A stretch of DNA of 53,525 nucleotides from Chloroflexota bacterium (GTDB lineage: Bacteria; Chloroflexota; Chloroflexia; Thermobaculales; Thermobaculaceae): assembly GCA_902810765.1 (NCBI GenBank), contig CADDYR010000001.1, positions 1 to 53,525 of the forward strand. Direction: 5' to 3'. Position 1 is the first letter of the stretch. Each line of letters starts with the position of its first letter. The notes under the pieces were generated by a model. The model was not told where the DNA came from. It saw only the letters and a program-made list of their open reading frames with translations, and made no database searches. The translations under genes and the position numbers were made by a program. This document shows positions 7,861 to 28,904 of this stretch, in pieces.

Positions 7861-7874
7861 CCTTCAGTTACCTC

Positions 7875-8696
7875 CTAATCCAAGAGCAGCTCGACCGTCG
7901 GGTACTCCCGAAGGCGGATGAAGCGGCCGTAGGAGCCGGTGCGCGTGCCGGCTTCAGCAAGGTGGGGAAACGCCGCTAGCGCTTGATCCAGCCGACGGTC
8001 CAGGACGGACGGCTCGAGCAGGCACAGGCGAGCAACGGCCTCTCGACGCTCAGGCGTCAGCAAGAGATCAGTGTTGAGCTGGGCGCTGCTCTCGCGTGCT
8101 ACGTGGCCGACCGCCAGCAGCACCAGTTCTCGGGAGCAGAGGTCGCGGCGATGAAAGCAGTCGTTCTCCAGCACGGGCGGGGTGAGGGGCTCCAGCCACT
8201 TGCGTAGGCCCAGCACGCTCTTGGTGCTGAACGCGGGCCGAGCACCCTCAAACTTCGCCTCTGCGAGCGAGAGCACATCCGCCACCAACTGCTTCCGATT
8301 AGCAGCATCGAGCACGATCTGTCCTTCTGCCCACAGGTGGTCACAGAACACTCGGTATGCCCAGGACACTCCGAGGTCAGGTCTGGCCGACCAGGCAGAG
8401 TACAGGAGGAAGTGCAGCACATCGGCGGCCACATCCGGCCTGAGCCGGTAGAGCGACTGCCCGAGCACCGAAAGCTTTATGCCACTGGCTCCATCCTCGA
8501 GAATCCCCAGCAGTCGCGCCATTGATAGCGGCTCCGTCCGATCCGTGAACGCGTACCGCTCGCGGATCGCGCTCAAGAGCTCCGCGTACGACCCGAACGC
8601 CTCGCGGCCACTCTGCGACATTGCCTCGACGATGGTCCGCATATGCTCGCTGCTGCGGACTGGGTCGAGGTGCAGCGTTACGTGTTCCGTAGCCAT
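7875..8696 (-). CDS. Conserved-looking protein of unknown function, defence operon
   Basis: I do not recognise this 273-residue protein. It is soluble and mostly helical, with no signal peptide or membrane segment. Notable parts are an N-terminal His-containing stretch (ATEHVTLHLDP), a central aromatic-rich segment (HFLLYSAWSARPDLGVSWAY) and a C-terminal region with several Arg/Leu helices ending in VELLLD. The start overlaps the end of the TGT-like gene by 19 bases and the ATPase gene follows after 14 bases, so the product is made with both and is a candidate partner of the ATPase. By position it could correspond to DpdG of Dpd islands; this is a positional guess only. Confidence 0.6.
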   Translation of the reverse strand: MATEHVTLHLDPVRSSEHMRTIVEAMSQSGREAFGSYAELLSAIRERYAFTDRTEPLSMARLLGILEDGASGIKLSVLGQSLYRLRPDVAADVLHFLLYSAWSARPDLGVSWAYRVFCDHLWAEGQIVLDAANRKQLVADVLSLAEAKFEGARPAFSTKSVLGLRKWLEPLTPPVLENDCFHRRDLCSRELVLLAVGHVARESSAQLNTDLLLTPERREAVARLCLLEPSVLDRRLDQALAAFPHLAEAGTRTGSYGRFIRLREYPTVELLLD

Positions 8697-11616: not shown

Positions 11617-14600
11617 TCATCCCTCAACCCTCGAGGCCTGTAGCTGCTGGATGCTGAACGTCGAGGATACCATCCCGAACGGCATGCCGTCGCTCGGAAG
11701 TCCGCCGAGAGGGTCTGGAATCGCCTGGTACGAGACGACCCGGTCCCCGTCCACCTCGACTATCGCCAACACGTAGTCCGCGCGCTTGTTCCTGGCCACT
11801 AGCTGTTCGTTACGGGTCAGCGTGATGGTATCAACTCCCACCGCCCGGCCTTTCACCTCGACGAACCGGCTCTTGCCCGTATCGCGATGCGCCGACTCGA
11901 GGTCGTAGCCACGGCGTTCCCCGCTCACATCGCGCGGCTCGTAGCCGGCCTCTCGCTCACGCAGCATCACCTCGCGCATCGCCACCAGCTCGAGTCGCTG
12001 CAGGGCTTCAGGGTCGGGCTCCTGATGGTCTTTCCCTAGGCGATCCGCCGGGACTACGAGCATACCCGCGAGCACCTGCGGAGGCGGGCACTGGACTATC
12101 ACCTCCCGCTTCAGCGCCTCCAGTCGCCACTTGCGCCTTTCCGTGAGCTCCGCCGCCTTATCTCGGGCGTTGTCAACGGCTACCTTCGGAACCGTGCCCT
12201 CGCGGTACTGGCGGTCGAGCTCATCCGCTCGCTTGTCCCAATGGAGCACGAGCTGCGAGAGCCGGTCGTCCACCGCCTGGAGAACCTTGCGCGCTCGCTC
12301 CTCACGCTCCTGTCGCACTCGCTCCAGCTGCTCCTCGGCCAGGTGGACGATGGCGTAGTCCTGCACCGCCTCGAGGTCAACTCTGCGCACCCATTCCGCG
12401 CTCGCGAGCGCCTGCGCCTCGTGTACCTCATCCGGCTCGAGGGGGCGATAGTCCAGGTACGGCGCGGCGCCCGCGCGGACGGCTTTCCCCTCGGCGCCGA
12501 GCTCGACGAAGTGCAGCTCGGAGGAGAGGGTATCCCCATCGTCGTCGGTGACGTCCGTGCGGACCATGAAGAGGAGACGGGGCTCGCCCGTCGCCGACGG
12601 ATCCACCAGAACGGCCCCTTCGGTCATCAGCCCCCCCCACCGCTCCAGTACCAGCCCGAGCGTTGCCTCGAGCAGCGGGTGCCCAGGCCCGATGAACTTC
12701 GCCTCCGTCAGTCCCTCGACCTCGGCAAGCTCCTTGTCGAAGCAGACGCGAGTGTAGCTGGTGGGCAAGGTACAGGAGCGCCCGAAGCGTTGAGCGCGGC
12801 GACGAATCTCCGGCGGCACGTTGCTTATCCGGTAGCGACCGGGCTCCCGCTCGGTAATGCTGCCTCCGAGTCGGGTGAACGCCTCCGCGAAGAAGGACGC
12901 GATGAAGTGGGGCACCAGACGGTTCGTGGCGCCGCGGTCTCGCTCCTCGGCCAGCTCCGTGACCTGCGCGGGATCCATTATCTCGCGAACCAGCCGGTAC
13001 TCCTCGAGCAGGCGGCGGTACTCCTCGAGGTCCGCCAGGTTGGCGACTACCTCCTCCAGTCTCGCCCTCTGCGCTGGGTCGTCCCCATAGCGTATGGCGT
13101 CTAGCATGAGCTCGCGCAGCGGCCGGTCGGTGAACACCTCGCCCAGGACATCGAAGACGGTGTCCCCGAGCGCCTTGCGGGCCTCCTCCAGCTTCGCCAG
13201 TAGCCGGTCGTACACCTCGCCCTCCCGGGTGTTGTACGCCAGCAGGTTCCAGTTATGGCAGACCTCCTTCTGGCCAAACCGGTGGATGCGACCGAAGCGC
13301 TGCTCCAGCCGGTTCGGGTTCCACGGCAGGTCGTAGTTGACCATGAGGTGCGCCCTTTGGAGGTTGATGCCCTCTCCGGAGGCATCCGTCGCCACGAGCA
13401 CGAGCGACTCCTCCCTGTGCAGGAACTCGTTCTGCGCGTCGCGCCGGGCATCGCGGCTCATCCCTCCGTGAATGGTCACCACGGCGTCATCTCGGCCCAG
13501 GTAGTCGCGGATCCGCTCCGCCAGGTAGTGGAGCGTGTCCCGATGCTCGGTGAAGACGACGAGCTTGCGGCGGGACCCGTCGGCCTTGTACATCTCGGGC
13601 GTCTCCTCGAGCAGCGTGCGCATCTCTTGCCACTTGCTGTCCTCGCCCGAGGCGCGAACTCTCTCGGCCAGCGCTTCGAGCCGAGCGAGCTGCTCGAGCT
13701 CGAACTCGAGCTCGGCAATCGTGCGCGAGGCCGACGCGCGATCGACTATCTCCTCGGCTTCATCCTCAGGGCTCTCCTCGAGGTCCGTTTCTAGCTCGTC
13801 GGGCTCGACCCGACCATAGCCGCTAGCGAGATCCAGCTTCTCCAGCCGCTTCCGACGCTCCTCCTCGAGCGTGCGCTCCAGCCGCCTACGACGCCGAGCG
13901 AGCGACTGGTAGATGGCCTCGGGCGAGGATGCGAGGCGGCGCTGAAGGGTCGTGAGCGCGAACCCGACGACCGTCCGGCGCTGTCGGCCCTGCCCGCCCT
14001 CGGCCGCAATGAGGTCGGCCCGGTTCATCTCCTGCCGGACGTACTCCGTCATCTCCTCGTAGAGCTGAAGCTCAAGCGGGGAGAGCGCGTACCCGACGGT
14101 ATAGGCGCGCCGCTCCGGGAACAGCCGACACCCGCCGAAATCCACGAGGTCTTCCTTCATCATCCGGCGCATGACGTCCTGCACGTCCTGCGGCTGCAGC
14201 TTCTCCTGAAAGCGGACCTCGAAGCGGTCGGGGTCCAAGAGCTGCATGAACATCTGGAAGTCGATCTCCTTGCCGCGGTGCGGTGTGGCCGTCAGCATCA
14301 GGAAATGCCGGGAGCGCGCGCTGAGCAGCTTGCCGAGCTTGTAGCGGGCGGTCTCCCTCACTTTGTTCGTGCCGGGCTGCATGGTCGCGCTCATCTTGTG
14401 CGCCTCGTCGACCACGACCAGGTCCCAGTCCACCTGGGACAGCCGCTCCAGCTGCTCCTCCTGCTTGAGGAGGTCGATCCGCGCGATCACGAGGTTACGC
14501 TCCGCGAACACGTTGACCGCCGCGGACTCGATCTCATGGCGTCCGACGATGTCGAAGTGCAGCCCGAACTTCTCGAGGAGCTCGTCCTGCCACTGCACCT

Positions 14601-15621
14601 CGAGCGAGGCGGGCACCACGATGACGCACCGTTCGAGGTCTCCCCGAAGGATGAGCTCCTTGATGAAGAGGCCCGTCATGATGGTCTTGCCGGCACCCGG
14701 ATCGTCGGCCAGCAGGAAACGGAGCGGCTGGCGCTGGAGCATCGTCTCGTACACCGCGGAGATCTGGTGAGGCAGTGGCTCAATCCACGACACCGAGACC
14801 GCGAGCTGAGGGTCGAACAGGTGGGCCAGCCGGATGCGCTCCGCCTCGAGCGCGAGGCGACAGAGGGCGCCATCGGCCGTGTACGTCCAAGCACCACCAC
14901 CCTCGACGACTTCGAGCGAGGGCTCGCTCGAGCGATACAGCACGCGGGTTCCAGGCTTACCCGTGACTACGTCCTCGTAGGTCAGCCTTACCGCCGTACC
15001 CCCGATCATCCTGGCGCTCAGGACTCGTACGGGTCCGTCCTGGCTCACGCCGAGGACGACAGCGCCCTCGGTCAGGTCCTCGAGCCGCGCTCCCGCGGCC
15101 GAGCTCGTCCTCAGCGGCTTGGTCAAAGCAGGAAACTCCTCGAGCACTTCCAGGTCAAACGGTTGGTAGATCCGCGAGCGCTCGCGGAGGCGGGACAGGC
15201 TCTCGACGTGCACGTAGCCGTCCCGGGGGTCGAGCTTGAGCCCAGCGCCACTCTCCGCAACGCGGTAGTTGTGGATGAGGTGGGCGACCGCGTGGGCGTA
15301 CAGCCCGACCTGCTCCCCCACGGGCAGGCGGGAGTCGAGCGCGAGCAGCCAAGAATCGGGCGGCTCCCCGTGGGGCACGAGCGCGGCATCGAACCTACCC
15401 GCGGGCGGAACCCGATACGCGGGGCAGGCTCCGGGGCCCAGGGCACGCGACAGGCTCGCAGCGTCGAGGCCATCCACCAGGAGCAGCTTGGCAGGCAGCA
15501 AGGCGTGGCCGAGAGAGCGCGCCCGCTCGCGGCAGCGGCGGTGGAGAGCCTGCACGCCGCCGGAACGTGGAGTCCAGGACGCGAGCAGCGAGAGCAGCCG
15601 CTCCACGGTGTCAGCTGCCAT
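11617..15621 (-). CDS. SNF2-type helicase with IrrE-like N-terminus and DUF3883-type C-terminus (DpdE/DrmD-like)
   Basis: A 1334-residue SF2 helicase of the SNF2/RapA class. N-terminal ~75-170 contains a zincin-like segment (YAHAVAHLIHNY, ~108-119) that recurs in the adjacent HsdR. Motif I is LLADDPGAGKT, motif II VVVDEAHKMS, motif III LMLTATPHRGK; the C-terminal helicase lobe has TDASGEGINLQRA and QRFGRIHRFGQ. The last ~100 residues carry GYDLES and RFVEVKGRA, the D...ExK pattern of DUF3883/PD-(D/E)XK-like domains. The start at ATG 15621 lies 5 bases after the preceding stop; the open frame extends further upstream only as a shadow of that gene. SNF2 proteins occur in Dpd (DpdE) and DISARM (DrmD); which is nearer needs a profile search. 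Confidence 0.85.
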   Translation of the reverse strand: MAADTVERLLSLLASWTPRSGGVQALHRRCRERARSLGHALLPAKLLLVDGLDAASLSRALGPGACPAYRVPPAGRFDAALVPHGEPPDSWLLALDSRLPVGEQVGLYAHAVAHLIHNYRVAESGAGLKLDPRDGYVHVESLSRLRERSRIYQPFDLEVLEEFPALTKPLRTSSAAGARLEDLTEGAVVLGVSQDGPVRVLSARMIGGTAVRLTYEDVVTGKPGTRVLYRSSEPSLEVVEGGGAWTYTADGALCRLALEAERIRLAHLFDPQLAVSVSWIEPLPHQISAVYETMLQRQPLRFLLADDPGAGKTIMTGLFIKELILRGDLERCVIVVPASLEVQWQDELLEKFGLHFDIVGRHEIESAAVNVFAERNLVIARIDLLKQEEQLERLSQVDWDLVVVDEAHKMSATMQPGTNKVRETARYKLGKLLSARSRHFLMLTATPHRGKEIDFQMFMQLLDPDRFEVRFQEKLQPQDVQDVMRRMMKEDLVDFGGCRLFPERRAYTVGYALSPLELQLYEEMTEYVRQEMNRADLIAAEGGQGRQRRTVVGFALTTLQRRLASSPEAIYQSLARRRRRLERTLEEERRKRLEKLDLASGYGRVEPDELETDLEESPEDEAEEIVDRASASRTIAELEFELEQLARLEALAERVRASGEDSKWQEMRTLLEETPEMYKADGSRRKLVVFTEHRDTLHYLAERIRDYLGRDDAVVTIHGGMSRDARRDAQNEFLHREESLVLVATDASGEGINLQRAHLMVNYDLPWNPNRLEQRFGRIHRFGQKEVCHNWNLLAYNTREGEVYDRLLAKLEEARKALGDTVFDVLGEVFTDRPLRELMLDAIRYGDDPAQRARLEEVVANLADLEEYRRLLEEYRLVREIMDPAQVTELAEERDRGATNRLVPHFIASFFAEAFTRLGGSITEREPGRYRISNVPPEIRRRAQRFGRSCTLPTSYTRVCFDKELAEVEGLTEAKFIGPGHPLLEATLGLVLERWGGLMTEGAVLVDPSATGEPRLLFMVRTDVTDDDGDTLSSELHFVELGAEGKAVRAGAAPYLDYRPLEPDEVHEAQALASAEWVRRVDLEAVQDYAIVHLAEEQLERVRQEREERARKVLQAVDDRLSQLVLHWDKRADELDRQYREGTVPKVAVDNARDKAAELTERRKWRLEALKREVIVQCPPPQVLAGMLVVPADRLGKDHQEPDPEALQRLELVAMREVMLREREAGYEPRDVSGERRGYDLESAHRDTGKSRFVEVKGRAVGVDTITLTRNEQLVARNKRADYVLAIVEVDGDRVVSYQAIPDPLGGLPSDGMPFGMVSSTFSIQQLQASRVEG

Positions 15622-15626
15622 CGTCT

Positions 15627-17072
15627 CTATCTCGGGCCCCCTGCTTCCAGCCGTCGGAGCAGCTCCTGGAGCCTCTGGCGGACGCTGGCCGACGTCGTGG
15701 CCAGGTCGGGCGCTGACTCCACCTCCGCGCGACGGATGACTCGCCTCAGCCTGCGCCGACCGCCCTCCGGATCGGGGGAAGAGTACCAGCGGCCGTCCCC
15801 GTGTACGAAGCCGCCGGCGTAGAGGGCCGAGCGGATGGAGCCGCGATGCACCGTGTGTCCCTGCCGCTCGCGAACGGACTCGACGACCTCCCGGAACGTA
15901 AGGCCATCGGGCGCGCCAGAAAGGATGGCCTGGATGGACTGCCGGTAGGATTCGCCAAGGCCGCCGCGGAGCTCCGCCAGCACCTCCACGTCGACCAGTC
16001 GCGTCTCCTCCTCCTGCACGGCCTCGTCCCGACCGATGATGGAGAAGACGAGGACGTCCGGCGCCCACTGCACGCGGAGCAGGTCGCCCGCCTCGCACCA
16101 GGCGAGCTTATCCGCGAGGTCGGCGCCGTAGAGCAGGTTCGCGCTCCGGTCGAGCCAGACCCACAGCCGGTCGTTATCGGCGTACCATCGCCCGCGCAGC
16201 GCGGTAACGTCCCCCTCGCCCGGCCGGCGCGATGGGTATATCGAGCGCACGGCCTTCGGGACTCGGAGGACGCCCTCATTGATGTGTGTAGTGCGCAGGG
16301 GCACGGTCCAGGCGGCCACTTGCTTGGCGTTGGGACCTTCGGTTTCGATGCGCGCGACCGGCGGCTCCGGCTGCTCCACGTACACGACCTCGACATCCTG
16401 CGAGTCTCTCCCGATGGCGAGCACCCGGAAGCGCGACGGGCGAGCGTGCTCGGGGACGGTATGAGCCAGCGCCCAGTAGTCGTATCCCACCCGACGGATC
16501 CCATCCCAGCTCGCGAGCCACGCCTGCACCAGCCGCCAATCCTCGTCGTTCCCTCCATCCCAGCCCAGCGACTCCAGCATCCCCGATATCTGTCGGACGG
16601 TCAGCGGCTGGGCTCCCTCCTCGAGCCACAGCGTCGTGAGCTCGGCCGCCAGCTCGTCCAGGCGCGACCGCTCCTCGGGCGCGAGTTCGACCTCGACCTC
16701 GCGGTCGGCAGATCGGAGCGTGCCGTTCCGATCCATCTGGAAGCGAGGGTCCACGGGACAGAACACGTAGTGGACTCCGTCCTCGGCCTCGAGCTCGGCA
16801 AGCTTGGCGTCTACATCCCGGCCGTCCCACGTCCCCTGATTGAGCGCGTCGAGCAGGCGATCGTTCCCAAGCACCTGCTCCGCGAGCCTCCACTGTCGAG
16901 GATGCTTTGCATCCCGCTCTCGCGCCAGCACAAATCGTGAGTCGACGTGAATGGGGAGCTCGATACCCAGCTCCCAGACAGCGCTGAGCGCCTCATCCTC
17001 CGTGAACGTCCGGCGCGTAGGCCGCAGACGCTCCACTGCCTCCTCGAGCAGGTGTCCAACCTCGGTCTCCAT
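15627..17072 (-). CDS. Unknown protein with predicted winged-helix ends, defence operon
   Basis: A 481-residue soluble protein that I cannot assign. The N-terminal ~120 residues look like a winged helix (TFTEDEALSAVWELGIEL, then RQWRLAEQVLGNDRLLDAL). A second possible winged helix lies at ~385-440 (GLTFREVVESVRERQGHTVH, GSIRSALYAGGFVH), ending in DGRWYSS. The middle has beta-rich segments (VEVVYVEQPEP, GRWYADNDRLWVWLDRS). Its ATG overlaps the stop of the exonuclease-helicase fusion (TGATG) and the SNF2 gene starts 5 bases after its stop, so it probably works with those two as a DNA-binding or adaptor subunit. Dpd/DISARM counterparts are unknown to me. Confidence 0.6.
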   Translation of the reverse strand: METEVGHLLEEAVERLRPTRRTFTEDEALSAVWELGIELPIHVDSRFVLARERDAKHPRQWRLAEQVLGNDRLLDALNQGTWDGRDVDAKLAELEAEDGVHYVFCPVDPRFQMDRNGTLRSADREVEVELAPEERSRLDELAAELTTLWLEEGAQPLTVRQISGMLESLGWDGGNDEDWRLVQAWLASWDGIRRVGYDYWALAHTVPEHARPSRFRVLAIGRDSQDVEVVYVEQPEPPVARIETEGPNAKQVAAWTVPLRTTHINEGVLRVPKAVRSIYPSRRPGEGDVTALRGRWYADNDRLWVWLDRSANLLYGADLADKLAWCEAGDLLRVQWAPDVLVFSIIGRDEAVQEEETRLVDVEVLAELRGGLGESYRQSIQAILSGAPDGLTFREVVESVRERQGHTVHRGSIRSALYAGGFVHGDGRWYSSPDPEGGRRRLRRVIRRAEVESAPDLATTSASVRQRLQELLRRLEAGGPR

Positions 17073-20000
17073 CACGCCGCCAGCTCCGGGAACTCCGGCA
17101 GCTCGATGCCGCCCGCCAGCGCGTCTCGCCCCTTCTCGGTGAGCCTGACGGCCTGATACGTCTCGTCCCGGTTGCGCATCGGCCTCTCCTCGAGCGCGAG
17201 AAAGCCTGCCTCGATGAGGACCTCGATCGTGCGCCGCAGCCGGTCTCGCGTCGTGGCTCCTTCCAGGACGCCGAAGTGGTCGGAGGCTCGTGCACTCGGA
17301 GTGAGCTGATAGCCGTCACCCACGAGCATATTTACGAACGTGCGGCTGCTGTAGATACGGTTGTGCTGGAGCACCGCCGAGAGCACCGCGAGCCGCGGGT
17401 CCACCTTCAGCGGCTCCCCGTACAGGCGCACGCCCGGGTCCCAGGGCAGCTGCTCGTTCGTGGGGCTGCACAGGTCGCACCGGCCGCAGAGCGGAGCATC
17501 ATCACGGCCCGTGAGGTAGTTGACCAGGAAGGCGCTCCGGCACCGGCTCCCACCGGGCCTCAGTCTCGCGTAGTCGAGCATGTCCTGTAGCCGCTCCTCG
17601 AACATCCCGTAGCGGGCGCCGAACCTGGATTCGAGGTCTTTGACGCGGTCGGGAGTGAGGTCCGCCGGGTCAACCTGGAGCGTGATACCGCGCCGGTACG
17701 GACGGTACAGTACCAGATCGCGCTGGCTCAGGTGAACGAGCAGCGGCTCGAGGCTGCGCGGGTCGAGGCCGGTCTCTCGGTACACCTGAGCCGCGAGGTA
17801 CTTCCGCTGCACGTCGCGTTCGGCGCCTAGGGCGTCGAATAGCAGCCGAGCCGGACCCCGATCTGAGGAGGGCAGCTGCCCCAGAATCTCATCAGGATGC
17901 GCGTTCAGGAGTATGGTGCCCTCGAGGGTACAGTCCGCGCCCCGCTGGAGCAAACCCTCGGCCTCGAATGAGTAGAGGAGCATGCGCCCCTCTGTCGGCT
18001 CCACCCCAGCCAGCTCCGATACCTCGTCGGGGTCACAGAGGATGTAGCCATCGGGGAGTCGAGCCGCGTTGATGTGTTCGGAGTTGACCGACGACAGGGC
18101 CCGAGCGTACTCCGTGAGGACGCTGTTCTGGAGGACGCCCTGCTGCGCTATGAAGCGGAGGGTGCGCTGCGTCTGGGAGTTGTACAGCAGGATGGCGTAA
18201 GCCGGCTTACCATCGCGGCCCGCCCGGCCAGACTCCTGTGTGTAAGCCTCGAGACTCGCCGGGTGGTCATAGTGGAGCACGAAGCGGATCTCGGCCTTGT
18301 CGACGCCCATCCCGAACGCGGTCGTAGCGACGACCACCTCCAGCTCACCCTGCATGAACTGCTCCTGCACCTGGTGGCGCTCGGGCGTGGACATCCCGCC
18401 GTGATACGCCTGTGCCGCGATGTTGTACGCGCGGAGGAGACTGGCCAGCTGTGTCGCTGTCTTGCGCGTGGCGACGTACACAATGCCCGCTCCACCCTGC
18501 TCCTCGTTGCGCACAAGCTGGTGCACGATGCTCGCGGTCAGCTTGTCCCGATCCTCACGCTTTTGAACCTCGTACACCCGGTACATCAGATTGGGGCGAA
18601 CGAAGCTGCCGCTGTAGGTGAACAGCTCGCGCTGTCGGCCCATCCGCAGCTTTTCGACGATTTCCCTCTGTACGGCTTGGGTCGCAGTAGCGGTGAGGGC
18701 CTGAATGGGCAAATCGTCCGGCAGGAGCTGCGCGATCTCCAGAAAGTCGGGGCGGAAGTCGTGCCCCCACGTCGAGATGCAGTGCGCCTCGTCTACGACG
18801 AGCTGAGTCAGTTGGACGCTATCGAGGACGGCCCGGAACCTGGGGTCGCGGAGGCGCTCGGGGGAGACGTACAGGAGCTTGAGACGACCTGCCACAGCGT
18901 CACGCAGCACCTGCTCCTGACTGGCGGCGTCCATTCCGGATACGAGCGCCGCGACGCACTCGAGACCCGGCACCTCGCGCAGCTTCTCGACCTGGTCACG
19001 GATGAGCGCAATGAGCGGGGAGATGACGAGCGTGAGTCCGGGCCGGATGAGCGCGGGCAGCTGGAACGTGCGGCTCTTGCCCGCACCCGTCGGCAGGAGG
19101 GCCAGCACGTCCTTTCCTGCGAGGACCGCCCGCATTATCTCTTCCTGACCGGGGCGGAAGCCCGAGTGCCCCCAGATGGCCTGCTGTACGGTCAGGAGAC
19201 GGGGCCGGGCGACGGAGTCGTAGTCTTCATCCGACAGCACCGGCGTCGGGAGCTGATTCTCCTGAAGGATGCGGGCGATCTCGGCCGATTCCGGCTCGGG
19301 CAGATCCTCCTCGCTGAACGGGAGGCCCATCCACTCCGCCACGTGGCGGAAGAGATCGACATCGGAGTCGTAGCGGACCGTCGGCTCGGGCAGCGAGCGC
19401 AGGACCTCCGCCCGGTACAGTGAGTTGCGCAGCCGCTTGTCGAGGAGGATGACAGCCCCCCGGTCCTCGGGGGAGCGCACCAGGCGACCAAAGCCCTGCT
19501 TGAGCACTATGATCATCTTCGGGAGCAGGTAGTCGTAGAACGGGTTGTGGCCAGCCTGCTCAACCGCCGACATGCGGGCCGCTTCGACGGGGTCCCCGAT
19601 GCTGGGGTACGGCAGCTTCTCGAGGAAGACGTAGGATAGGGACTCGCCCGGCACGTCCACTCCCTCCCAGAGGGAGCGCGAGCCGAGCAGCGAGCTGGCC
19701 GGGGTTTCCCTGAACTCCTGAATCAGTCGCTGCAAGCCACTGCGCCCCTGACACAGCACGGGGAACCCCTCCTCGATGAGGCGGGAGGCGAGCTGCTCGT
19801 ACACGAAGTCGCGCCGGCTGTTGGCCGTGAAGAGCACGAGGGAGCGACCATGAAAGTACGGGATGAAGCGGGCGAGGAGGCCCGCGACGGCCTCCGGGAA
19901 CTTGCGCTTCAGGTCGCTGTCACGTGGAGCGGGCAGGTCGTTGGGCAGCTCGAGGAGCGCAAGCGAGTGGTAGTCGAACGCGTGAGGCAGAGCACACTCG

Positions 20001-22450
20001 ATGAGCCGCTTGTCCGGCGCTTTGTCCGCGATGCGGCCACGCTCCAGACCTATCCTTCCGAGGAAGAACTCGAAGCCCTGGCCGTAGACGGTCAGCGTGG
20101 CGGAGGTGCAGATGCCCGCGTCGAGCCGCGACCAGAGTCCGTCCCAGAGCTTGGGCCCGACGTTCACGGGCACTCCGCGCAGGGCCACCGGCGCTCGTGA
20201 AGGCTCCCCGTCGCGCGATGCCGGTAGCTTGCCCAGCTCGATCATCCGCACGTGCGTTGTTCCCTCAGCAAATGACCAGAACCAGCCATAAGTTTCGTAA
20301 ATGGCCTTGAGGTCCCCGACGACGCGGCGGAGATGTCGGATCACCCTCCTGGCTCGGCGCCCTGCAGCTTCGCTCCCGCGCGGGCCTGCCTCGTTGCCTC
20401 GATGGTGCAGCTGGACCAGGCTGTCAGACAGCCCCTGCAAAGCGCCGCGGAACGTATCCACGGCAGTCCGCAGGTCCGGCCCACCCGCAGCCTGGAACAC
20501 ACCCCGGTCGATCGCGATGCGCACACCGTAGCGATCGAGATCAGCGCGATTGACCACGGTCTTGTTGACTACGTACTTGCGGAGCTGCGTGGCGAGCGCG
20601 TCGAGCGCCCCCGTCACCCGGTCCACGGCCTCACGTACTGCCACGACAGTCTCGTCGTCGCGGTCGAGCCCGAAGGCCGCCCTCGCGTCGGCCAGCAGTC
20701 CTCGTGACCGTGGGGCGACTATTCCGCGCAGCAGCCTGCGCAGCTCCGTCTCCTCCACGCGCTGCTCCAGAGCGTTGGTAGCAGCATCTTCGAGCGTGTG
20801 CGCCTCGTCGAACACCAACCGGGTCGCGAATGGCTCCTCGTCATCCGCGCTTCCGAGGTAGCTGGTCAGCAGGAGCGCGTGATTCACGACGATGATGTCC
20901 GCCCGCTCTGCATTAGCCCGCGCCCGGGTGTAGAACTCCTGCAATGGCCCGGCCGGGGGATCGTCTCTGCCTGAACGAACGGTAGAGAGCATGGCGAACA
21001 CCGCCCCGTCGGCCTCCAGATACTCATCCAGTGAGCGTGGGATATAGGCCAGCTCCTCCAGGTTGCCGTGAGCGCTCTCAGCGGCGAAGCGCACGAGCAG
21101 CCCGAGCGTCCAGGCAGTCGGGCGCAAGAGGTGCGCGGCCTCGAACGCCTCGAGCAGTTCGTCGGCCAGGCGCGCCACCGAGATGTAGTTGGCCCGACCC
21201 TGGAGCTGCGCGTATCTGAGGCCCGGCAGCAGCTCCTGCACGAACGGCAGCTCACGTCTCACGAGCTGGTCCTGAAGCACCTTCGTGTACGTCGAGACCG
21301 CGACGGGCGAGCTGGTGGCCAGGGCGTCCACGGCGGAGGGGATGAGATAGCCGAGGCTCTTGCCGGTACCCGTGCACGCTTCGATGACGCCGTAGCCTCC
21401 GGTTTCGAGCAGGTCGCGAACCTCGCCCGCCATCTGGAGCTGAGCCTCACGCCGGCTGCGGCCCCTCTCCTCCGCGCGCCGGAACACCGCCTCGACCGAC
21501 TCCCGTGAGCTGGCTGCGTGCCTCTCCTCAAGCAGCGGAGTGATGTTCCGCGCTAAGTGGGCGCTGATGGATTGGGCGGATACGATCGCGTGTGGCGGCT
21601 CGAGCAGGTACGACCAGGGGTCACCGGCTCGGCGCAGCAGCTCGTACACCGCCGCGCCGGTCTCGGTATCACGCAGCTCGCGGCCCAGGCCCTGGATGAT
21701 GCTTCCGAGCATCGCGACATCCACCGCCGCGTCGTGAGCACCTGCACGTGCGCATCCGAACCTCTCTGCAAGCGACTCCACGCGGTGCTCGGAAGCAAGC
21801 GGCAGCAGCACGCGGGACAGGGGCAGCGTGTCGAGGACGAGCCACGTGGACGGTAGCGTAATGCCGAGTCGCTGAGAGACCGCCTCAAGGAGCGGACCAT
21901 CGTAGCTGGCGCCGTTGTGCGCGATGACGGGCAGGTCGCCCACGAACGCGAGGAACTGCGGCAGGACCTTCTGAGCACAGCCCGCGCTCGCCACGTCCTC
22001 GTTCGTGATCCTGGTCAGCTCCTCGATCTCGGCGGGAATGGGCCTCGTCGGGCGAACGAGCTCGTCGAAGGTCGCTACGCAGCGCCCGTCTACCCACCGC
22101 TCGGCGGCTATCTGGATGATCTCGTTGCCGGGCAGTCTCGGATCCTGCCCCAATGCTTCCAGGTCGAAGACCACGTAACAGCCCCGCTGCAGGTGGGGAT
22201 ACTCGAGTGTCGGAGTCTGTACCTCATTGGGCTCGGGGTGCTCGATGACAGTGCGGAGCTGCCAGCGTCCGCCAACCTCGCTGAACCGGTGCGGCAGCTC
22301 ACGGAGCACCTGTGCCACGCGCGGCGCAGGTAGCCTCTGGCCGACTTGCCGACTGACCCCCGCGGTGAGGGCCTCGAGAGTCATCCCGTCCGGCTCTGTC
22401 CTGAGCGCCTGCGCCGCGGCTTCCGCCACACGCTGTTGCATCGCGTTCAT
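17072..22450 (-). CDS. Giant fusion: winged helix + DEDDh exonuclease + DinG/XPD helicase + RecQ helicase
   Basis: A 1792-residue, four-part protein. Residues 1-66 look like a winged helix. Residues 92-260 are a DnaQ-type 3'-5' exonuclease with FDLEA (Asp96, Glu98), AHNGASYD (Asp184) and AHDAAVD (His239, Asp244). Residues ~340-1010 are a DinG/XPD helicase with ACTGTGKS (~359-365), DEAH (548-551), [10 protein letters not shown] and [15 protein letters not shown]; the four Fe-S cysteines of DinG/XPD are missing (NYIS at ~421). Residues ~1085-1560 are Rec[34 protein letters not shown], and the zinc Cys set 1637/1655/1658/1661. A winged helix closes the protein. The RBS AGGAG lies 9 bases before the ATG. 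Exo-DinG proteins exist; fusion to RecQ is unusual. Probably DNA resection or degradation. Confidence 0.9.
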
Positions 22451-22454
22451 GCGG

Positions 22455-22640
22455 TCAGCTCTCCTCTGGCAGGTTCAACAGGAGCCGCAGGGTGCGGAAG
22501 AAGTCGTCGCGAGCCGCCCGCACGTCCGCTTCGGGATACTCCTCGCTCGCGGCTGCGCGTATCAGGGCATCCATCAGCGTCTCACCCAGTTCGAGCACCT
22601 CGGCTGCGATCTCCTGCCTTTGGTCTACGGGCGGCCTCAT
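22455..22640 (-). CDS. Small helical protein, probable first gene of the defence operon
   Basis: A 61-residue acidic helical protein beginning [14 protein letters not shown] and ending NLPEES. The frame is open further upstream (to 22778), but that extension is Cys/Pro-rich and unlike protein from this genome, so I prefer the ATG at 22640, preceded by GGAAGAG. It ends 4 bases before the giant exonuclease-helicase gene, which suggests translational coupling. Its function is unknown; a regulator, inhibitor or small subunit is possible. Confidence 0.5.
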
Positions 22641-22797
22641 CAGCTCTTCCACCCAAGAATAGGGACGCAACGAAGGGCAAGAAGCGCAGGCTGCCAGCGT
22701 GAGCAGCCAGGGGGCGATACATGCGGGAAATCGGCATTCCAGCCCCGTGCGGTAGAACGCGCTACATCCACTTTGCAAATGTCCAGAGCAACGTGAA

Positions 22798-22813
22798 CGG
22801 GCACCTGTGCCCG
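22798..22813. promoter_or_regulatory. Palindrome downstream of the operon promoter
   Basis: CGGGCAC-CT-GTGCCCG is a perfect 7-bp dyad with a 2-bp centre, ~50 bp downstream of the candidate -10 box. The placement suits an operator, or a 5' UTR hairpin controlling the defence operon. Confidence 0.4.
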
Positions 22814-22863
22814 ATCCTTCCTACGTCTACACGGAGAGTATTAGCAAACTTCACCCGCGGATG

Positions 22864-22892
22864 TCTATAGCCCGATTGGCATGCGTCCACAA
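22864..22892 (-). promoter_or_regulatory. Candidate promoter of the defence operon
   Basis: Read on the minus strand, TTGTGG (22892-22887) and TATAGA (22869-22864) are separated by exactly 17 bases. Transcription would begin near 22857 and give a 5' leader of ~215 nt before the small first gene. Only this one sigma-70-like pair is well formed in the gap; whether the operon's own sigma-like protein uses it cannot be judged. Confidence 0.5.
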
Positions 22893-23116
22893 GGGAACGT
22901 CACAAAGTGTACAGGGAACTCGCGACAGCTAGATTGTCATCGCGCTGGCTGATTAGATTTCCTGTAGTGAGGCCCACCTTCCCGTCTGGGTCGCGCTCCT
23001 ATTCGGCCCTTTCATAGGATGAAGAGGACACCTGCCCCGGCAGCCCGGAGCTCTCCTCTGCTGATGATTATTGGAACTTCGGGGTGGGAACAAGCACGGT
23101 GGATCTCAGAGGCAGC

Positions 23117-24304
23117 TTATAGCTCCCCGCGAAACGCCCTGTCGAGCACGGAGGGCAGCATTGCATCGAGCTCCGCCTGCGTCTCGGCCTGCAGTGCTTT
23201 CACCGCGCGCACCTTCGCCTGCAACCCGTCTAGGTACTGAACAAGGCGGTGCTGCTCGTTGATCCCAATCTGCGTCGGAAACGGAATACCCATGACATCG
23301 GCCTGAGAGATCTTACGCATGCTAGGACTCGTTCCCTTTGCCACCGTACCGATGTAGTCACGAACCCTTGGACCCATCAACCAGTAATGTACGAACCTAA
23401 TTGAAGCTTGAGCCTCGTCAACCACCAGCTTCATCATTAGATCGGGGTAAATACAAGGCTCGGGCCGCCCGTCATAGATAGCGGCGTGACCAACAAGGTC
23501 TGGAGTGTTGCTGCGGGTAATGAGTAGATCTCCGGTCTTCAACCAGTAATGAGCGTCCGCCGTCGTTGGTTCAGCGGTCCTCTTGAACTCATTCCCTCGA
23601 TACTGGTAGCCACTTACTGCGCTTAGAGTCAGTACAGGCGTACCTGCCGATGCCTCGTCACACGGGGGCGACCAACCGTTCCGAGGTCGCTCGATCAGAA
23701 CCTCACCCAAGACTCCGGCTGGAACACCCACCACCATCCTCTGAACTACCGACGCAACCAGCGCACGAGCCGCCTCTCCCGCCTGCTGTCGGAGGGCCCG
23801 CGCCTCCTCAATCTTACCCGCGAGTTCCTTAATGCGCGCCGCCAAGTGCCGCTGCTCATCGATGGTAGGGATGGGAACGGGGATGGGTAACAAACGATTG
23901 GCCCTGAGCTCAGTCTTAATGCCGCCCGGCACATACGCAGACATCAACTCCCTGAACATGTCACTTCGGAGGAGCCACCAAAGATAGCGGAGGTCTGCCT
24001 TGTCGTCATCAACCCGATAGGTGCTGTAGTGGATGGTGGCGGCCAAGTCTGTATTGTGCTCCCTGCCATACATCCCAACAGCACCCTTGGCCGCATTGAT
24101 ACCAGAAACGACTAGATCGCCTGGTTTGATGAGTATCATTCCCGTCCTGGTCTCACCACCCTGCCTCAGCTGAATCACACCATCGTTGAATCCGATCTTG
24201 TCGACTATTGCTATTTCGCCGTTCTTGAGGGCATTCTCATCCGGCGTCTCACGGCGTTCGGTCAGTACCTCGCTGAGAGGCAGTATCGGATACGCACTGC
24301 TCAT
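23117..24304 (-). CDS. hsdS: Type I restriction-modification specificity subunit HsdS
   Basis: A 395-residue specificity subunit that recognises the bipartite DNA target of the type I enzyme. Two target-recognition domains are seen, each followed by the typical conserved region and a long helix: PIPVPIPTIDEQRHLAARI plus the helix EEARALRQQAGEAA around residues 150-190, and IPFPTQIGINEQHRLVQYLD plus KVRAVKALQAETQAELDAML at the C-terminus. The ATG at 24304 overlaps the hsdM stop (ATGA). The long upstream frame read through hsdM is spurious. Base composition is lower in GC than in the neighbours, which is common for exchangeable HsdS genes. Confidence 0.92.
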   Translation of the reverse strand: MSSAYPILPLSEVLTERRETPDENALKNGEIAIVDKIGFNDGVIQLRQGGETRTGMILIKPGDLVVSGINAAKGAVGMYGREHNTDLAATIHYSTYRVDDDKADLRYLWWLLRSDMFRELMSAYVPGGIKTELRANRLLPIPVPIPTIDEQRHLAARIKELAGKIEEARALRQQAGEAARALVASVVQRMVVGVPAGVLGEVLIERPRNGWSPPCDEASAGTPVLTLSAVSGYQYRGNEFKRTAEPTTADAHYWLKTGDLLITRSNTPDLVGHAAIYDGRPEPCIYPDLMMKLVVDEAQASIRFVHYWLMGPRVRDYIGTVAKGTSPSMRKISQADVMGIPFPTQIGINEQHRLVQYLDGLQAKVRAVKALQAETQAELDAMLPSVLDRAFRGEL

Positions 24305-25797
24305 CGAGGTGCTCCCGCTAGCGCCTGCTGAATCTCCCGCATCAGCTCGGCTATGCGCTGCTCCTTCTCGAGGGTGCTCGCGGCCAGCTGCTCCGGTGGC
24401 AGGTGCTCCAAGGGCTCGGCTGCGTTCGGGTTCTTGAGGTCCAGGTTGTAGCCGTTCTCCCGCAGCCGCTCCACCGGCACGCACCACGCGCGCTCGTTCT
24501 CCTGTCGGTCGTTCCACCACTCCTGGACGGGCGCGAACTCCTCGTACTGTAGCGGCTTCGTCTTCGTGTACTGCTTCCGGCCCTCCGGCAGCGGCAGATC
24601 GTAGTACCAAACCTCGCGCGTAGGCTCGCCGGACTCGAAGAACAGCAGGTTCGTCGGAATGCTCGTGTACGGCGCGAACACGCCGTTGGGGAGGCGGACT
24701 ATCGTGTGCAGATTGAACCGCGTGAGCAGCCGCTCCTTCACCGCCGTTTCCACTCCCTCCGCGAACAGGAAGCCGTTGGGCAGGACGATGGCGCAGCGGG
24801 CGCCCGTTCGCTTCAACTTCTCCATCACGTACACCACAAACAGCGTCGCGGTTTCCGCTGTGCGCGCCCAGAACGGGAAATTGCTGAGTATTCCCCGCTC
24901 CTCCTCCCCACCGAAGGGAGGATTCGTCGCAATCACGTCCACCCTCTCCTCGTCGCGGATTTGTGTCACGTTCGTGGAGAGCGTGTTCTGCTCGTACAGC
25001 CGAGGCTCCTCGACGCCGTGCAGCATCATGTTCATCACCGCCAGCAAGTACGGCAGCGGCTTCTTCTCTATGCCGACCAGGCTCTCCTGCAGCCGCTCCC
25101 GGTCGTGGGGATTGCGCACATCGCGCTTCATGTGCTCGTGCGCCTCGACGAGGAAGCCCGCCGTCCCGCAAGCCGGATCGAGCACCGTCTCGCCGAGCCT
25201 GGGGTCCAGCCGGTCTATCATGAAGCGGATGACGGGGCGCGGGGTGTAGAACTCACCCGAGGAACCCGCGGCGTCGCGCATCTCGCTCAGCATGCGCTCA
25301 TAGAACACGGCGGCCATGTGGACGTCGTCCGAGGAGTTGAGGTTGATGGTGTCTAGCTTGTCCACGACCTCGCGGAGGATGTAGCCCGAGCGGACGCGGT
25401 TGTAGATGCCCTGGAACACTCGACCCACCACGGAGCGCAGGTACTGCTGACGGGCGCCGGAGAGCGTGGCGAGGTGCGGGAAGAGCTGATCGTTCACGAA
25501 CGAGATGAGCTCGTCCCCGGTGCGCTGGCTCGTGAGGTCATCGGGGCTCACCCAGTCGTGCCAGCGGTACGGAGGGTCGATGACGGGCTCGTACTCGTCA
25601 TACTCCTCCTCGCGCGCCCAGTCATAATCGTCCACGGCCTTCAGGAAGAGCATCCACGTCAGCTGCTCGAGGCGGTCCGTCTCGCCCGAGAGTCCCGCGT
25701 CCTTCCGCAGCTGGTCACGCACCGATTTGATGGTGCTGTCGAACTGCTGCCTGCTCGTGAGCGGCTGCGCCTGCTTCCTCGTTTGTCCTCGCGGCAT
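24301..25797 (-). CDS. hsdM: Type I restriction-modification methyltransferase subunit HsdM
   Basis: An N6-adenine DNA methyltransferase of 498 residues. An N-terminal HsdM bundle (FDSTIKSVRDQLRKDAGLSG) is followed by the catalytic domain with the SAM-binding motif I VLDPACGTAGFLVEA, the catalytic motif IV ATNPPFGGEEE and GEFYTPRPVIRFM. The C-terminus has a coiled coil that binds HsdS. I prefer ATG 25797, which has AAAGGA upstream; GTG 25815, overlapping the hsdR stop as GTGA, is the alternative. All catalytic motifs are intact, so methylation is likely functional. Confidence 0.93.
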   Translation of the reverse strand: MPRGQTRKQAQPLTSRQQFDSTIKSVRDQLRKDAGLSGETDRLEQLTWMLFLKAVDDYDWAREEEYDEYEPVIDPPYRWHDWVSPDDLTSQRTGDELISFVNDQLFPHLATLSGARQQYLRSVVGRVFQGIYNRVRSGYILREVVDKLDTINLNSSDDVHMAAVFYERMLSEMRDAAGSSGEFYTPRPVIRFMIDRLDPRLGETVLDPACGTAGFLVEAHEHMKRDVRNPHDRERLQESLVGIEKKPLPYLLAVMNMMLHGVEEPRLYEQNTLSTNVTQIRDEERVDVIATNPPFGGEEERGILSNFPFWARTAETATLFVVYVMEKLKRTGARCAIVLPNGFLFAEGVETAVKERLLTRFNLHTIVRLPNGVFAPYTSIPTNLLFFESGEPTREVWYYDLPLPEGRKQYTKTKPLQYEEFAPVQEWWNDRQENERAWCVPVERLRENGYNLDLKNPNAAEPLEHLPPEQLAASTLEKEQRIAELMREIQQALAGAPR

Positions 25798-25811
25798 TCT
25801 CCGTCCTTTCG

Positions 25812-28800
25812 TCACGCCGAGTACAGCAGCTGCTGCATCTCGCCGAGTGCTTCCCTGACCTTCTTTCCCCCGCCGAAGCGGCTCGCCAGCTCCACGAACG
25901 TCCCCTCTTCCGACAGCGGCGGCACCTTCAGCAGGTTGGTGTTGCCAACCTCCTCAGTCTCGCCACTCACGTACTTATCGAGGATTGCATCCAGGATACG
26001 ACGGGCCGTGGGCTCGTATCGCTCGAAGAACTCGGGGTGCTCCTGCCGCAGCCTGCGCGCGTACTCGCTACGGGTATGAGCGGGCAGGCCGAAGGCGGCG
26101 TGGAGCAGCAGGTCTAGCGGGTCGGCCTCGGGCTGGTGCAGCGCCTCGGCCAATGTTGGTATGTCCACGCCCTCCGCGTACAGTCGCTCGAGAAGCTCCT
26201 CGCGCTGTTCGGGGTGCAGCCACCGCGCCCGTAGCTCGGTCGGGCTCTCAGCCACGCCTCGCAGCGCGGCCCGCGTGTAGTCCCGATACGAGAGCGCGCG
26301 CAGGGTCTTACCGTCTGGCCCCAGATCGTACACCACCTCGCCCCGCACAGAGAGCACGTGCCGGTCCCCGTGCCGCACGACCTCCTCTGGCGGGGCTGGC
26401 TCGACCTCCGGCTCCGCGGGCTGCTCCACTCGCTCTGTCGTCGGTTGCTGGCCCGCGGGCACCGGCTCGACCCGCTCATCAATCGCTACCCCGGGTACGA
26501 CGTCAACGACCGGCCCGACAGGCTCAACACAGCCAGTGGCACCGAGCGCGTCCTCAGTCACTGGCTCGCTTTCCGGCGGGGGCAATCCGGGCTCATACTC
26601 ACCGTGAGGCTCGTCGACTGTTACCTCCGCCGCGGTATCTGGGTCAGGCGTGTATTCGACGGGTTGCACGACCTCTACGTCCACGACCTCTGGATAACCG
26701 TCGAAGCCTGGATCGAAGAACAGCTTCGTCGCACCCGAGTAGTCGAGGATGGTGAACCAGGCCTTGTCGGGCTCGTGGAGACGGGTACCCCTTCCGATGA
26801 TCTGTTTGAACTCAACCATTGACCCTACGGGACGCGCGAGGACGATGTTCTTGCAGGTCGGCACGTCCACGCCGGTACTGAGGAGCCGTGAGGTGGTGAC
26901 GACGACGGGCGTCGGCTCGTCGGGAGTCGCGAACCTGCCGAGCGCTCGCCGCCCCTCGAGCCCTTCCTCCGCGACGATGCGCTCCACGTAGTCGGGGTGT
27001 CTCTCGACCAGCTCCGACAGCTCCCGCTCGAGGGCGAATCGCATGAGGTCGGCGTGCGCCTGGTCTACGCAGAAGACAATCGTCTTCGCCATCGGGTCAG
27101 TCTCGCGCAGGTACTCCGCGAGGTGATGGGCTATGACGTCGGTCTGTTCCCGCAGCGTGCGCTCGTCCAGATCCTCGGCGGTCGCGCCCGGCACGTCGGC
27201 GACCTCGGCCCCGAGGAGCACCCTGCGGACGCGGTACGGAGCGAGGAAGCCGTCGGTGATACCGTCGCGCAGCGAGTACTCCACGATTGGATTTCCGAAG
27301 TACGAGTAGGTCTGGATGTTCTCATCCTGCTTCGGGGTGGCGGTCAGGCCCACCTGGATCGCGCCGGAGAAGTACTCGAGAATCTCCCGCCAGTTCGACT
27401 CGTCCTGCGCACTGCCTCGATGGCACTCGTCCACGATGACCAGGTCGAAGAAGTCGCGCGGGTAGTCTCGAAACAGTCCTCGGCGGACCTCGGACTGAGC
27501 AATCGCCTGGTAGGTGGCGAAGATGACGTCGCGGGCGGTGTTCGCGACTCCACGGATGCGCCAGCGCGCGTCGCTCAGAGGGCCGAACTCGTTGTCCATG
27601 GCCTGACTGAGCAGGTAGTCACGGTCCGTGAGGAAGAGCACCTTGCGGAATGCTCCGGTCCGCTTCAGTTTCCAGACCAGCTGGAAGGCGACCTTCGTCT
27701 TCCCCGTCCCGGTTGCAAGCGTGATGAGAATCCTCGGCGAACACAGCCTGCGCTTGGCTTGGAGGGCCGCGACGACCGCGTGGTTGATGGCGGCTTCCTG
27801 GTAGTAGCGCGGGTGAGCGCCGGAGCCGTACGGGTACTCGATGGTACGGCGGGCCTGCGCATCCTCGAGGCCGAGACCGCTGAGCCATCGCTGCTCGAGC
27901 TCGGCGGGCGGGGGCACGTCTTGGATGAGCGTGACTCGCGGCTCGGGGCAGCGGCAGTCGTACTCGCGAACGGTCTCGCCAGGACCCACGAGGTACGCGA
28001 ACGGCACGTGCAGGCGGGCGCGCGCTAGCTCCACAAGGCGGCGCTCCGCTTCGGCGGCGTCCTCGTCCGCCCTGAGCAGCTGGACTGCGGCGATAGGCAC
28101 GGATGCCTCCACGCGGAGCAGCGCGTCAACTTTCAGGCCGGGGCCGCGGCGAACCGTCGAGCCGGTCACGTACACGCGCCCCGGCGTGAGCACATAGGGG
28201 AGCTCAAGGAGCCTCCGCGGCCAGCCCGACTGAACGAGGCGGCTCCGGAGCTCGGAGAGCTCGGTGCCGGAAGCGGCAGGAAGCTCGGACTGCGGACCGA
28301 GAAGCTGGGCGAGCGTCGGGTAGGTCTCGAGCACGCGCCGATCCACCGGCTGCGGCGTGAGGTCGAGCTGCCGAAGCTCCGCGACGGTGTCGGCGTGTGC
28401 GTAGCCATCCCTGGGGTCGAGGAGCGGCAGCTGGCCGAGACGACAAGCCTCCCGGTTGAGGAGCAGGTGCCCGACGGCGTGGCCGTACAGAGCGACCTGG
28501 TCGGGCAGAGGTAGCTCGGCCCCTACAGCGAGCAGCCATCTGTCTCCGACCGGAACGAGTGCCGCATCGAATCCACCCGCGAGCTTTCGTCTGAACTCGA
28601 CTGCGCCGCTCGGCTCGCGCCAGCGCACCCGTCGCAGCTCCTCGACAAGCCGAGAAGCATCCAGGTGTGGCACGAGGATGAGTCGTGCAGGGACCAGCTC
28701 GTGGTCACCAGGACTGACAGCAGCCGCTACCTGGGTGTGCAGGTCAGCCAGTGACGCTCCCCGCTCGGCACCTCTCCAGCCTGCAATGAGGCTCTGCAGT

Positions 28801-28904
28801 CGAAGCTGCACATCGAGCGCTCGGTCGGTGTCGATCGATGTCACCAGTTGCCATTCTCCGTCGAGAGCAAGGAGGGTCAAGAAAGCTACCGGGTGAATGT
28901 CCAA
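25812..28904 (-). CDS. hsdR: Type I restriction subunit HsdR with IrrE-like N-terminus and degenerate nuclease motif
   Basis: A 1030-residue EcoEI-type R subunit. Residues ~110-200 hold an extra domain (YGHAVGHLLLN, 140-150) almost identical in pattern to that of the SNF2 helicase. It is followed by the HsdR_N region where the usual D...ExK reads KVDALL...VQLLRA, so the ExK pair is missing. The translocase motifs are intact: ATGTGKTKVAFQL, VIVDECHRGS, GLTATPKQDE, TTSRLLSTGVDVP and QIIGRGTRL. A Pro/Glu-rich linker precedes the EcoEI_R C-terminal domain (IPTLAEALHQPEADPLDLLL). The frame opens with TTG at 28904; GTG within QLVTSID is another possible start, so the exact start is uncertain. Translocation seems possible, cleavage doubtful. 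Confidence 0.88.
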   Translation of the reverse strand: MDIHPVAFLTLLALDGEWQLVTSIDTDRALDVQLRLQSLIAGWRGAERGASLADLHTQVAAAVSPGDHELVPARLILVPHLDASRLVEELRRVRWREPSGAVEFRRKLAGGFDAALVPVGDRWLLAVGAELPLPDQVALYGHAVGHLLLNREACRLGQLPLLDPRDGYAHADTVAELRQLDLTPQPVDRRVLETYPTLAQLLGPQSELPAASGTELSELRSRLVQSGWPRRLLELPYVLTPGRVYVTGSTVRRGPGLKVDALLRVEASVPIAAVQLLRADEDAAEAERRLVELARARLHVPFAYLVGPGETVREYDCRCPEPRVTLIQDVPPPAELEQRWLSGLGLEDAQARRTIEYPYGSGAHPRYYQEAAINHAVVAALQAKRRLCSPRILITLATGTGKTKVAFQLVWKLKRTGAFRKVLFLTDRDYLLSQAMDNEFGPLSDARWRIRGVANTARDVIFATYQAIAQSEVRRGLFRDYPRDFFDLVIVDECHRGSAQDESNWREILEYFSGAIQVGLTATPKQDENIQTYSYFGNPIVEYSLRDGITDGFLAPYRVRRVLLGAEVADVPGATAEDLDERTLREQTDVIAHHLAEYLRETDPMAKTIVFCVDQAHADLMRFALERELSELVERHPDYVERIVAEEGLEGRRALGRFATPDEPTPVVVTTSRLLSTGVDVPTCKNIVLARPVGSMVEFKQIIGRGTRLHEPDKAWFTILDYSGATKLFFDPGFDGYPEVVDVEVVQPVEYTPDPDTAAEVTVDEPHGEYEPGLPPPESEPVTEDALGATGCVEPVGPVVDVVPGVAIDERVEPVPAGQQPTTERVEQPAEPEVEPAPPEEVVRHGDRHVLSVRGEVVYDLGPDGKTLRALSYRDYTRAALRGVAESPTELRARWLHPEQREELLERLYAEGVDIPTLAEALHQPEADPLDLLLHAAFGLPAHTRSEYARRLRQEHPEFFERYEPTARRILDAILDKYVSGETEEVGNTNLLKVPPLSEEGTFVELASRFGGGKKVREALGEMQQLLYSA

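Follow-up and report, generated by a model that had tools for sequence, protein, structure and literature searches.

A putatively inactive zincin-like domain shared by a nuclease-degenerate type I HsdR and a neighboring SNF2 helicase in Chloroflexota

Introduction

In the textbook view, type I restriction enzymes use a single subunit for pulling DNA and for cutting it. Here, we analyzed a window (that is, the whole stretch of DNA under study) of 53,525 nucleotides (nt) from a Chloroflexota bacterium (GCA_902810765.1, contig CADDYR010000001.1, positions 1-53,525), in which a type I HsdR of the EcoAI/FtnUII family and a SNF2 helicase encoded in the same gene run carry a common N-terminal domain. 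This domain and the genes that accompany it are the subject of the present study.

Several described systems resemble parts of this locus. Like the EcoAI/FtnUII-family HsdRs (NF046051), the HsdR of the window has a full-length model match over the cut-off, the motor motifs, and HsdM and HsdS partners; unlike them, the HsdRs that bear the domain (hereafter, carriers) add an N-terminal domain of ~205 amino acids (aa) and lose E-x-K and the Q/Y positions that follow it. The domain itself finds its best fold matches in CapP and PprI (IrrE), proteins of the M78 ImmA/IrrE type, with the HxxxH helix in register, but it has Ala in place of Glu, no GAF-like part, and no match to the Pfam M78 model, and it keeps neither of two PprI positions that are described as contacting single-stranded DNA (ssDNA) (PMC10904395). 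The body of the SNF2 helicase matches HmaA (PADLOC PDLC00659), with DrmD and DpdE as further relatives, at 1309.7 bits over profile positions 3-1165 of 1176, and differs in its extra N-terminal domain. No other Hma component was among the best 25 PADLOC matches of each of eight window proteins scanned, a set without HsdM and HsdS. Finally, a further gene of the run resembles DinG helicases with a 3'-5' exonuclease domain and RecQ helicases in having the two helicase cores and a DEDDh exonuclease, motifs included, but these are fused here into a single chain of 1792 aa and linked to a type I restriction-modification system. Among the papers listed in searches on HsdR with IrrE, HsdR with DinG and RecQ, and HsdR with an inactive nuclease, none described the arrangement in its title or the opening of its abstract, subscription journals being mostly outside the scope of these searches.

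Results

SNF2 and HsdR share an N-terminal domain

SNF2 residues 2-183 aligned to HsdR residues 29-219 with 40% identity over 194 columns (BLASTP, 107 bits, E 7e-32). The Smith-Waterman score of the two N-termini was 298, whereas 500 shuffles averaged 39 and reached at most 79. Both copies present the same motifs in the same order: FDAALVP, WLLA, QVxLYxHAVxHL, and LDPRDGY. Judged by these alignments, the two N-termini are homologous, bearing out the shared domain and motif order proposed in a preliminary description of this DNA. The extent proposed there (SNF2 ~75-170, HsdR ~108-200) was too short, the real stretch being ~175-190 aa, about twice that given. The span assigned to the pair, 15100-28575, approximately covers both copies, but the HsdR copy extends to 28820.

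Searched with a profile made from five copies, the window's own genome yielded exactly two, which belong to a single run of genes on the same strand. The SNF2 copy was 43% identical to the HsdR copy of the window and 31-34% identical to the copies identified in Ktedonobacteria. A recent DNA-level duplication between the SNF2 and HsdR genes is unlikely, because the protein copies are only ~40% identical.

Convincing copies of the domain were present in four of 400 Chloroflexota genomes, comprising that of the window and three Ktedonobacteria (E 2.1e-21 to 1.4e-17), namely Dictyobacter arantiisoli, a Ktedonobacteraceae metagenome-assembled genome (MAG), and Tengunoibacter tsumagoiensis, in all of which the domain sits on HsdR. 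A profile search recovered it in 3/47 genomes of the Ktedonobacterial class and in 1/158 of the class to which the window belongs, that one genome being the window's. At E 0.01, seven of the 400 genomes had matches, but in three (G011, G039, and G089; best E 6.9e-4) these were short and lay in frames that were unrelated or contained stops, and we set them aside as chance matches. No copy was found in the viral contigs, phages, or plasmids searched. Outside Chloroflexota, the scan used two short peptide patterns, which distant or differently worded copies would escape, and the true spread may be wider.

The domain is an addition to both parent families

The junctions between the domain and the two host proteins are clean. 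Specifically, the NF046051 match begins at HsdR residue 221 (model position 13), and the PADLOC HmaA match begins at residue 189 (model position 3) of the frame that opens 10 codons before the SNF2 ATG, such that the HmaA-like body runs from about residue 178 of SNF2 and ends in a C-terminal NOV_C domain. Relatives of this body were present in 77 of the 400 Chloroflexota genomes, and we examined 29 loci from among them. In all 29, the body alignment opens near the protein's own start, typically with 'MARLEELxxGxxVxGIL' in other Chloroflexota, and the domain profile found no copy in the 77 open reading frames of these loci (best E 0.85); four had longer open frames upstream of the body, of 98-232 codons, that likewise lacked the domain. 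The window's SNF2 gene reads GGA GCG CGG at the ancestral start site and has no ATG, GTG, or TTG codon across residues 166-192, and the domain must therefore be translated from upstream, as part of the protein.

For HsdR, the domain was absent from 23 readable relatives outside the carrier group, and in other members of the family the match runs from about model position 1. We therefore rejected the possibilities that the domain is universal in EcoAI-type HsdRs or in HmaA/SNF2 proteins; universality in the HsdR family regardless of neighbors was one of the findings that the preliminary description had named as fatal to its proposal. The window's genome also encodes a second SNF2 paralogue (G000:C110:7660-10980), which is 55% identical to the window SNF2, has one in-frame TAG, and matches only from residue 178 onward, past the domain.

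Carrier HsdRs have lost the nuclease motif

The HsdR of the window passes NF046051 with 695.4 bits (cut-off, 550), and the region that follows the domain has the usual HsdR nuclease fold, with a putative HsdR, 3h1t, as the closest solved match (Z 14.3). The E-x-K of the PD-(D/E)xK nuclease site, expected of type I HsdRs, is missing from the carriers. In domain-less relatives, E-A-K followed by Q-A-x-x-Y was present in 23/23 readable loci, while the corresponding positions of the four carriers read Q-L-L (window), H-V-Q, H-V-Q, and H-F-Q; the Q and Y positions after E-x-K are likewise lost in all four, while the Walker A motif of the motor is retained. The comparison drew on 28 HsdR loci, of which L067 is the window, L078 the Dictyobacter carrier, and L073, L075, and L080 stop short of the nuclease region, leaving 23; rows for the other three carriers were taken from L015-L017. 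A stricter earlier filter, now superseded, had given 13 domain-less HsdRs.

These substitutions suggest that the HsdR nuclease is inactive in all four carriers; judged by sequence, the HsdR of the window is type I-derived but not a type I enzyme of the usual cutting kind. All four carriers appear to belong to a single lineage, and the loss therefore counts as one correlated event, not four. The preliminary description had recognized the domain on HsdR but overlooked the loss of the nuclease site.

A conserved five-gene cassette

The cassette of the window opens with HsdR and continues with HsdM, HsdS, the fusion of DEDDh exonuclease, DinG, and RecQ, and p482, a protein of 482 aa. Dictyobacter and Tengunoibacter have all five genes in this order, again with a domain-bearing HsdR at the head. 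In the Ktedonobacteraceae MAG the cassette is in pieces, with the fusion gene and p482 on another contig. The domain thus belongs to a conserved HsdR-HsdM-HsdS-ExoDinGRecQ-p482 cassette. The fusion orthologues are 55-59% identical to that of the window; exonuclease motifs are kept in the three copies that contain the region, and helicase and Zn-binding motifs in all four. Orthologues of p482 in the three Ktedonobacterial genomes are 38-40% identical, and some members have weak helix-turn-helix (HTH)-type Pfam matches, the only ones seen. Across the 400 Chloroflexota genomes, p482 was present in five, four of which were the domain carriers and the fifth a fragment without the remaining cassette; it was not found in the plasmids or viral contigs searched. 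The HsdS of the window matches the NCBIfam type I S subunit model with E 5.9e-19, under the model's curated cut-off.

In the window, only 5 bp separate the p482 stop from the SNF2 ATG. No relative of the window SNF2 was found in the stretches read around the Dictyobacter and Tengunoibacter cassettes, where short SNF2 matches corresponded to helicase motifs of the fusion gene and to the HsdR domain itself; for this reason, SNF2 looks like an addition to the cassette. The preliminary description had taken HsdR and SNF2 as representing two different defence systems, which is probably wrong, the domain being tied to one cassette.

Downstream of p482, the Ktedonobacterial cassettes have biosynthetic-looking genes or a STAND-WD40 protein, the latter a 1400-aa nSTAND1 NTPase with WD40 repeats in Tengunoibacter (L126:9511-13710). 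Upstream of the Dictyobacter cassette (L015:1993-9539) were a MoxR-type ATPase, a 647-aa protein that matched no Pfam family, a protein with weak CHAT-like character, and an HsdM that has a ResIII-like N-terminal fusion.

Fold and motifs of the domain

We built AlphaFold2 models from the five-sequence alignment. Both models were fairly confident: that of the SNF2 copy had a predicted local distance difference test (pLDDT) of 85.2 and a predicted template modeling score (pTM) of 0.83, and that of the HsdR domain plus nuclease region had a pLDDT of 81.8 and a pTM of 0.59. Zincin metalloproteases lead the solved structures matched by the SNF2 copy, with CapP at Z 6.2 (126 aligned residues, root-mean-square deviation 4.1), PprI-ssDNA at Z 5.0, and IrrE and Spartan both at Z 4.8. 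The HsdR copy separately matched CapP (Z 6.0) and IrrE (Z 5.0). Further matches of the SNF2 copy included selecase, YbeY, BlaR1, and anthrax lethal factor, which are known as zincin-type metalloproteases, plus some unrelated folds.

At the sequence level, a profile of the domain placed HAVxH on the HExxH of Chloroflexota M78 proteases in register (E 7.6e-4, probability 25%, 26 columns), with a score of 29.0 against the M78 profile, for which 13 of 20 M78-type pieces were kept by eye; 40 column shuffles gave no more than 17.4. One of the five members matches the Pfam domain DUF2201_N, a putative metallopeptidase domain (E 0.0051), while PF06114, the Pfam M78 model, matches none of the five at E up to 5. 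Searched against the PDB, the domain profile gave nothing beyond chance rows, led by the nuclear receptor HNF4 (E 0.27), and PADLOC and PHROGs gave only weak rows. The preliminary description had read the motif as an HExxH that lost its Glu, and this is literally so: all five sequences have His-Ala-Val-x-His, with Ala at the position of the catalytic Glu, and thus lack the M78 catalytic motif. Three His are invariant (110, 114, and 138 in SNF2 numbering), making metal binding without catalysis possible, and a D/E stands two residues past the third His in all five.

The models make a zincin fold of the IrrE/CapP kind likely, although not proven. Its identity as an ImmA/IrrE-type domain without Glu, also proposed in the preliminary description, is favored by CapP, PprI/IrrE, and Spartan being the top fold matches, but weakly so at the level of sequence, where the signal is gone once the His are masked.

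Gene coordinates and neighboring genes

Table 1. Coordinates of the cassette, the SNF2 gene, and their features within the window
Feature	Position	Strand	Description
SNF2 helicase	11617..15621	-	1334 aa from ATG at 15621; Pfam SNF2-rel_dom, Helicase_C, NOV_C; PADLOC HmaA
SNF2 N-terminal zincin-like domain	15097..15618	-	residues 2-175; HAVAH at 15280-15294
p482, cassette gene 5	15627..17075	-	482 aa; weak HTH/HARE-HTH matches; orthologues in three Ktedonobacterial genomes
DEDDh exonuclease + DinG-type helicase + RecQ helicase fusion, cassette gene 4	17072..22450	-	1792 aa; Pfam RNase_T, Helicase_C_2, DEAD, Helicase_C
HsdS, cassette gene 3	23117..24304	-	Met at 24304; Methylase_S weak; NCBIfam type I S subunit
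HsdM, cassette gene 2	24301..25815	-	N6_Mtase 1.2e-66; HsdM_N
HsdR, EcoAI family, cassette gene 1	25812..28904	-	1030 aa from TTG; N-terminal domain + degenerate nuclease site
HsdR N-terminal zincin-like domain	28290..28820	-	residues 29-205; HAVGH at 28467-28481
HsdR lost nuclease motif	28074..28082	-	Q275-L276-L277 where family has E-A-K

Beyond SNF2, the window encodes a 599-aa sigma-70-like protein (9757-11556, minus strand), which lies between SNF2 and a TGT-like gene and has its best matches, under equivalog cut-offs, to MzaA/RpoD-type proteins. At 3820-9760 (minus strand) are an ATPase of 1346 aa that weakly matches BrxC/BrxD, a protein of 273 aa (p273), and the TGT-like protein (PF01702, E 5.2e-8). 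This trio recurs in two other Chloroflexota genomes, one of which has two copies each of the ATPase and the 273-aa gene, and looks like a separate TGT-linked system. We considered whether the trio belongs to the cassette system and found this unlikely, because in those two genomes it occurs without a neighboring SNF2 or cassette.

Discussion

We tentatively propose that the domain common to the two proteins, as a catalytically dead zincin in which HExxH has become HAVxH, serves as a head for docking or regulation that ties a nuclease-less type I motor, and here also a second motor, to the shared effector assembly of a five-gene system. HsdM and HsdS would read and methylate a DNA site, and HsdR, with its motor kept and its own nuclease lost, would drive translocation of the complex on unmodified DNA without cutting. 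The head would bind a cassette partner, the first candidates being p482, possibly an HTH protein, and the exonuclease-helicase fusion, and the DNA would be handed to the exonuclease of the fusion for destruction. The HmaA-like SNF2, located at the end of the cassette, would have gained this head too and would join the common partner through it, adding a second motor; its NOV_C domain contains FVEVK, an intact-looking E-x-K. A partner common to both heads is plausible. We regard the cassette as a variant form of the systems derived from type I restriction, in which the two motors would share a dead-zincin head. Docking by this head is our main hypothesis; the partner, the hand-over, and a role in defence are presumed along with it.

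Among known zincins of this type, the targets of PprI and CapP, DdrO and CapH, are described as a repressor and a transcription factor (PMC10904395). By analogy with these, p482, if indeed an HTH protein, would be the natural first candidate for the partner.

Several observations weigh against this docking proposal. The fold Z-scores (4.5-6.2) are middling, and Foldseek gave E no better than 0.5 in the PDB and 0.018 in a viral library. The match to the M78 profile spans only 26 columns at a probability of 25%, and masking the two His abolishes it. Within the window, HsdS and the fusion gene are separated by a 666-bp gap (22451-23116), far wider than the other gaps in the run, and the two complete cassettes outside the window have no neighboring SNF2. 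Intact exonuclease motifs, as read from the sequences, do not establish the exonuclease as a substitute for the HsdR nuclease. Moreover, the domain carriers are four genomes of one phylum, and for this reason the loss of the nuclease and the gain of the domain may be a single historical event.

A rather unlikely alternative is that the domain acts as a sensor of DNA damage or ssDNA in the manner of PprI and CapP, binding ssDNA exposed by the motors and gating the ATPase without proteolysis. CapP, PprI/IrrE, and Spartan are its top fold matches, both host proteins are DNA motors, and PprI is reported to sense ssDNA and CapP to be activated by it (PMC10904395). However, the PprI residues described there as contacting ssDNA, Arg85 (seven before the first His) and Phe88 (four before), are replaced in the domain by D/E and A/G, and PprI without its GAF-like domain, a part that the shared domain lacks, did not bind ssDNA (PMC10904395). 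These two differences make an ssDNA-sensing role less likely, and the sensor-like character attributed to the domain in the preliminary description is unsupported.

We consider it about equally doubtful that the domain was fused independently to the two proteins as a structural or autoinhibitory head with no common partner, SNF2 and the cassette being separate and adjacent by chance in an island. In favor of this, the SNF2 body has relatives in 77/400 Chloroflexota genomes and carries the domain at none of the 29 loci fetched, and the Ktedonobacterial cassettes are without a neighboring SNF2. Against it, the genome has no copies besides these two, which share a single run of same-strand genes, with SNF2 starting 5 bp from p482, and the match to the second SNF2 paralogue of the same genome begins past the domain.

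Residual hydrolase or protease activity, with metal bound by His 110, 114, and 138 and the D/E past the third His serving as base, is improbable: the invariance of the three His and of the acidic position in all five sequences would fit such activity, but the catalytic Glu is Ala in each. Least credible, and proposed purely by analogy, is that the head would be a guard or decoy aimed at anti-restriction metalloproteins, for example ArdC, which is described as binding ssDNA, having a metalloprotease domain, and overcoming hsdRMS (PMC7213743).

Returning to the docking head, we also considered a broader and doubtful extension, in which the cassette exemplifies a modular class of type I-derived defence. 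Here, HsdR would have lost its nuclease and received a dead-protease socket into which exchangeable effectors plug: the exonuclease-DinG-RecQ fusion in every carrier, SNF2 with the same socket in the window, and perhaps the STAND-WD40 or CHAT-like genes beside the Ktedonobacterial cassettes. If such a class exists, target recognition and translocation would be uncoupled in it from the destruction of DNA.

If our proposal is correct, a clade whose enzymes still recognize, methylate, and pull DNA but lack the cutting site, with a dead-protease head gained and an exonuclease-helicase at its side, would show how the type I machine can be re-wired to outside effectors. That this head also sits on an SNF2 motor, which is unrelated, would offer a direct handle on the common partner. 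Dead zincins, for their part, would then extend from the control of repressors such as DdrO and CapH to docking on DNA motors.

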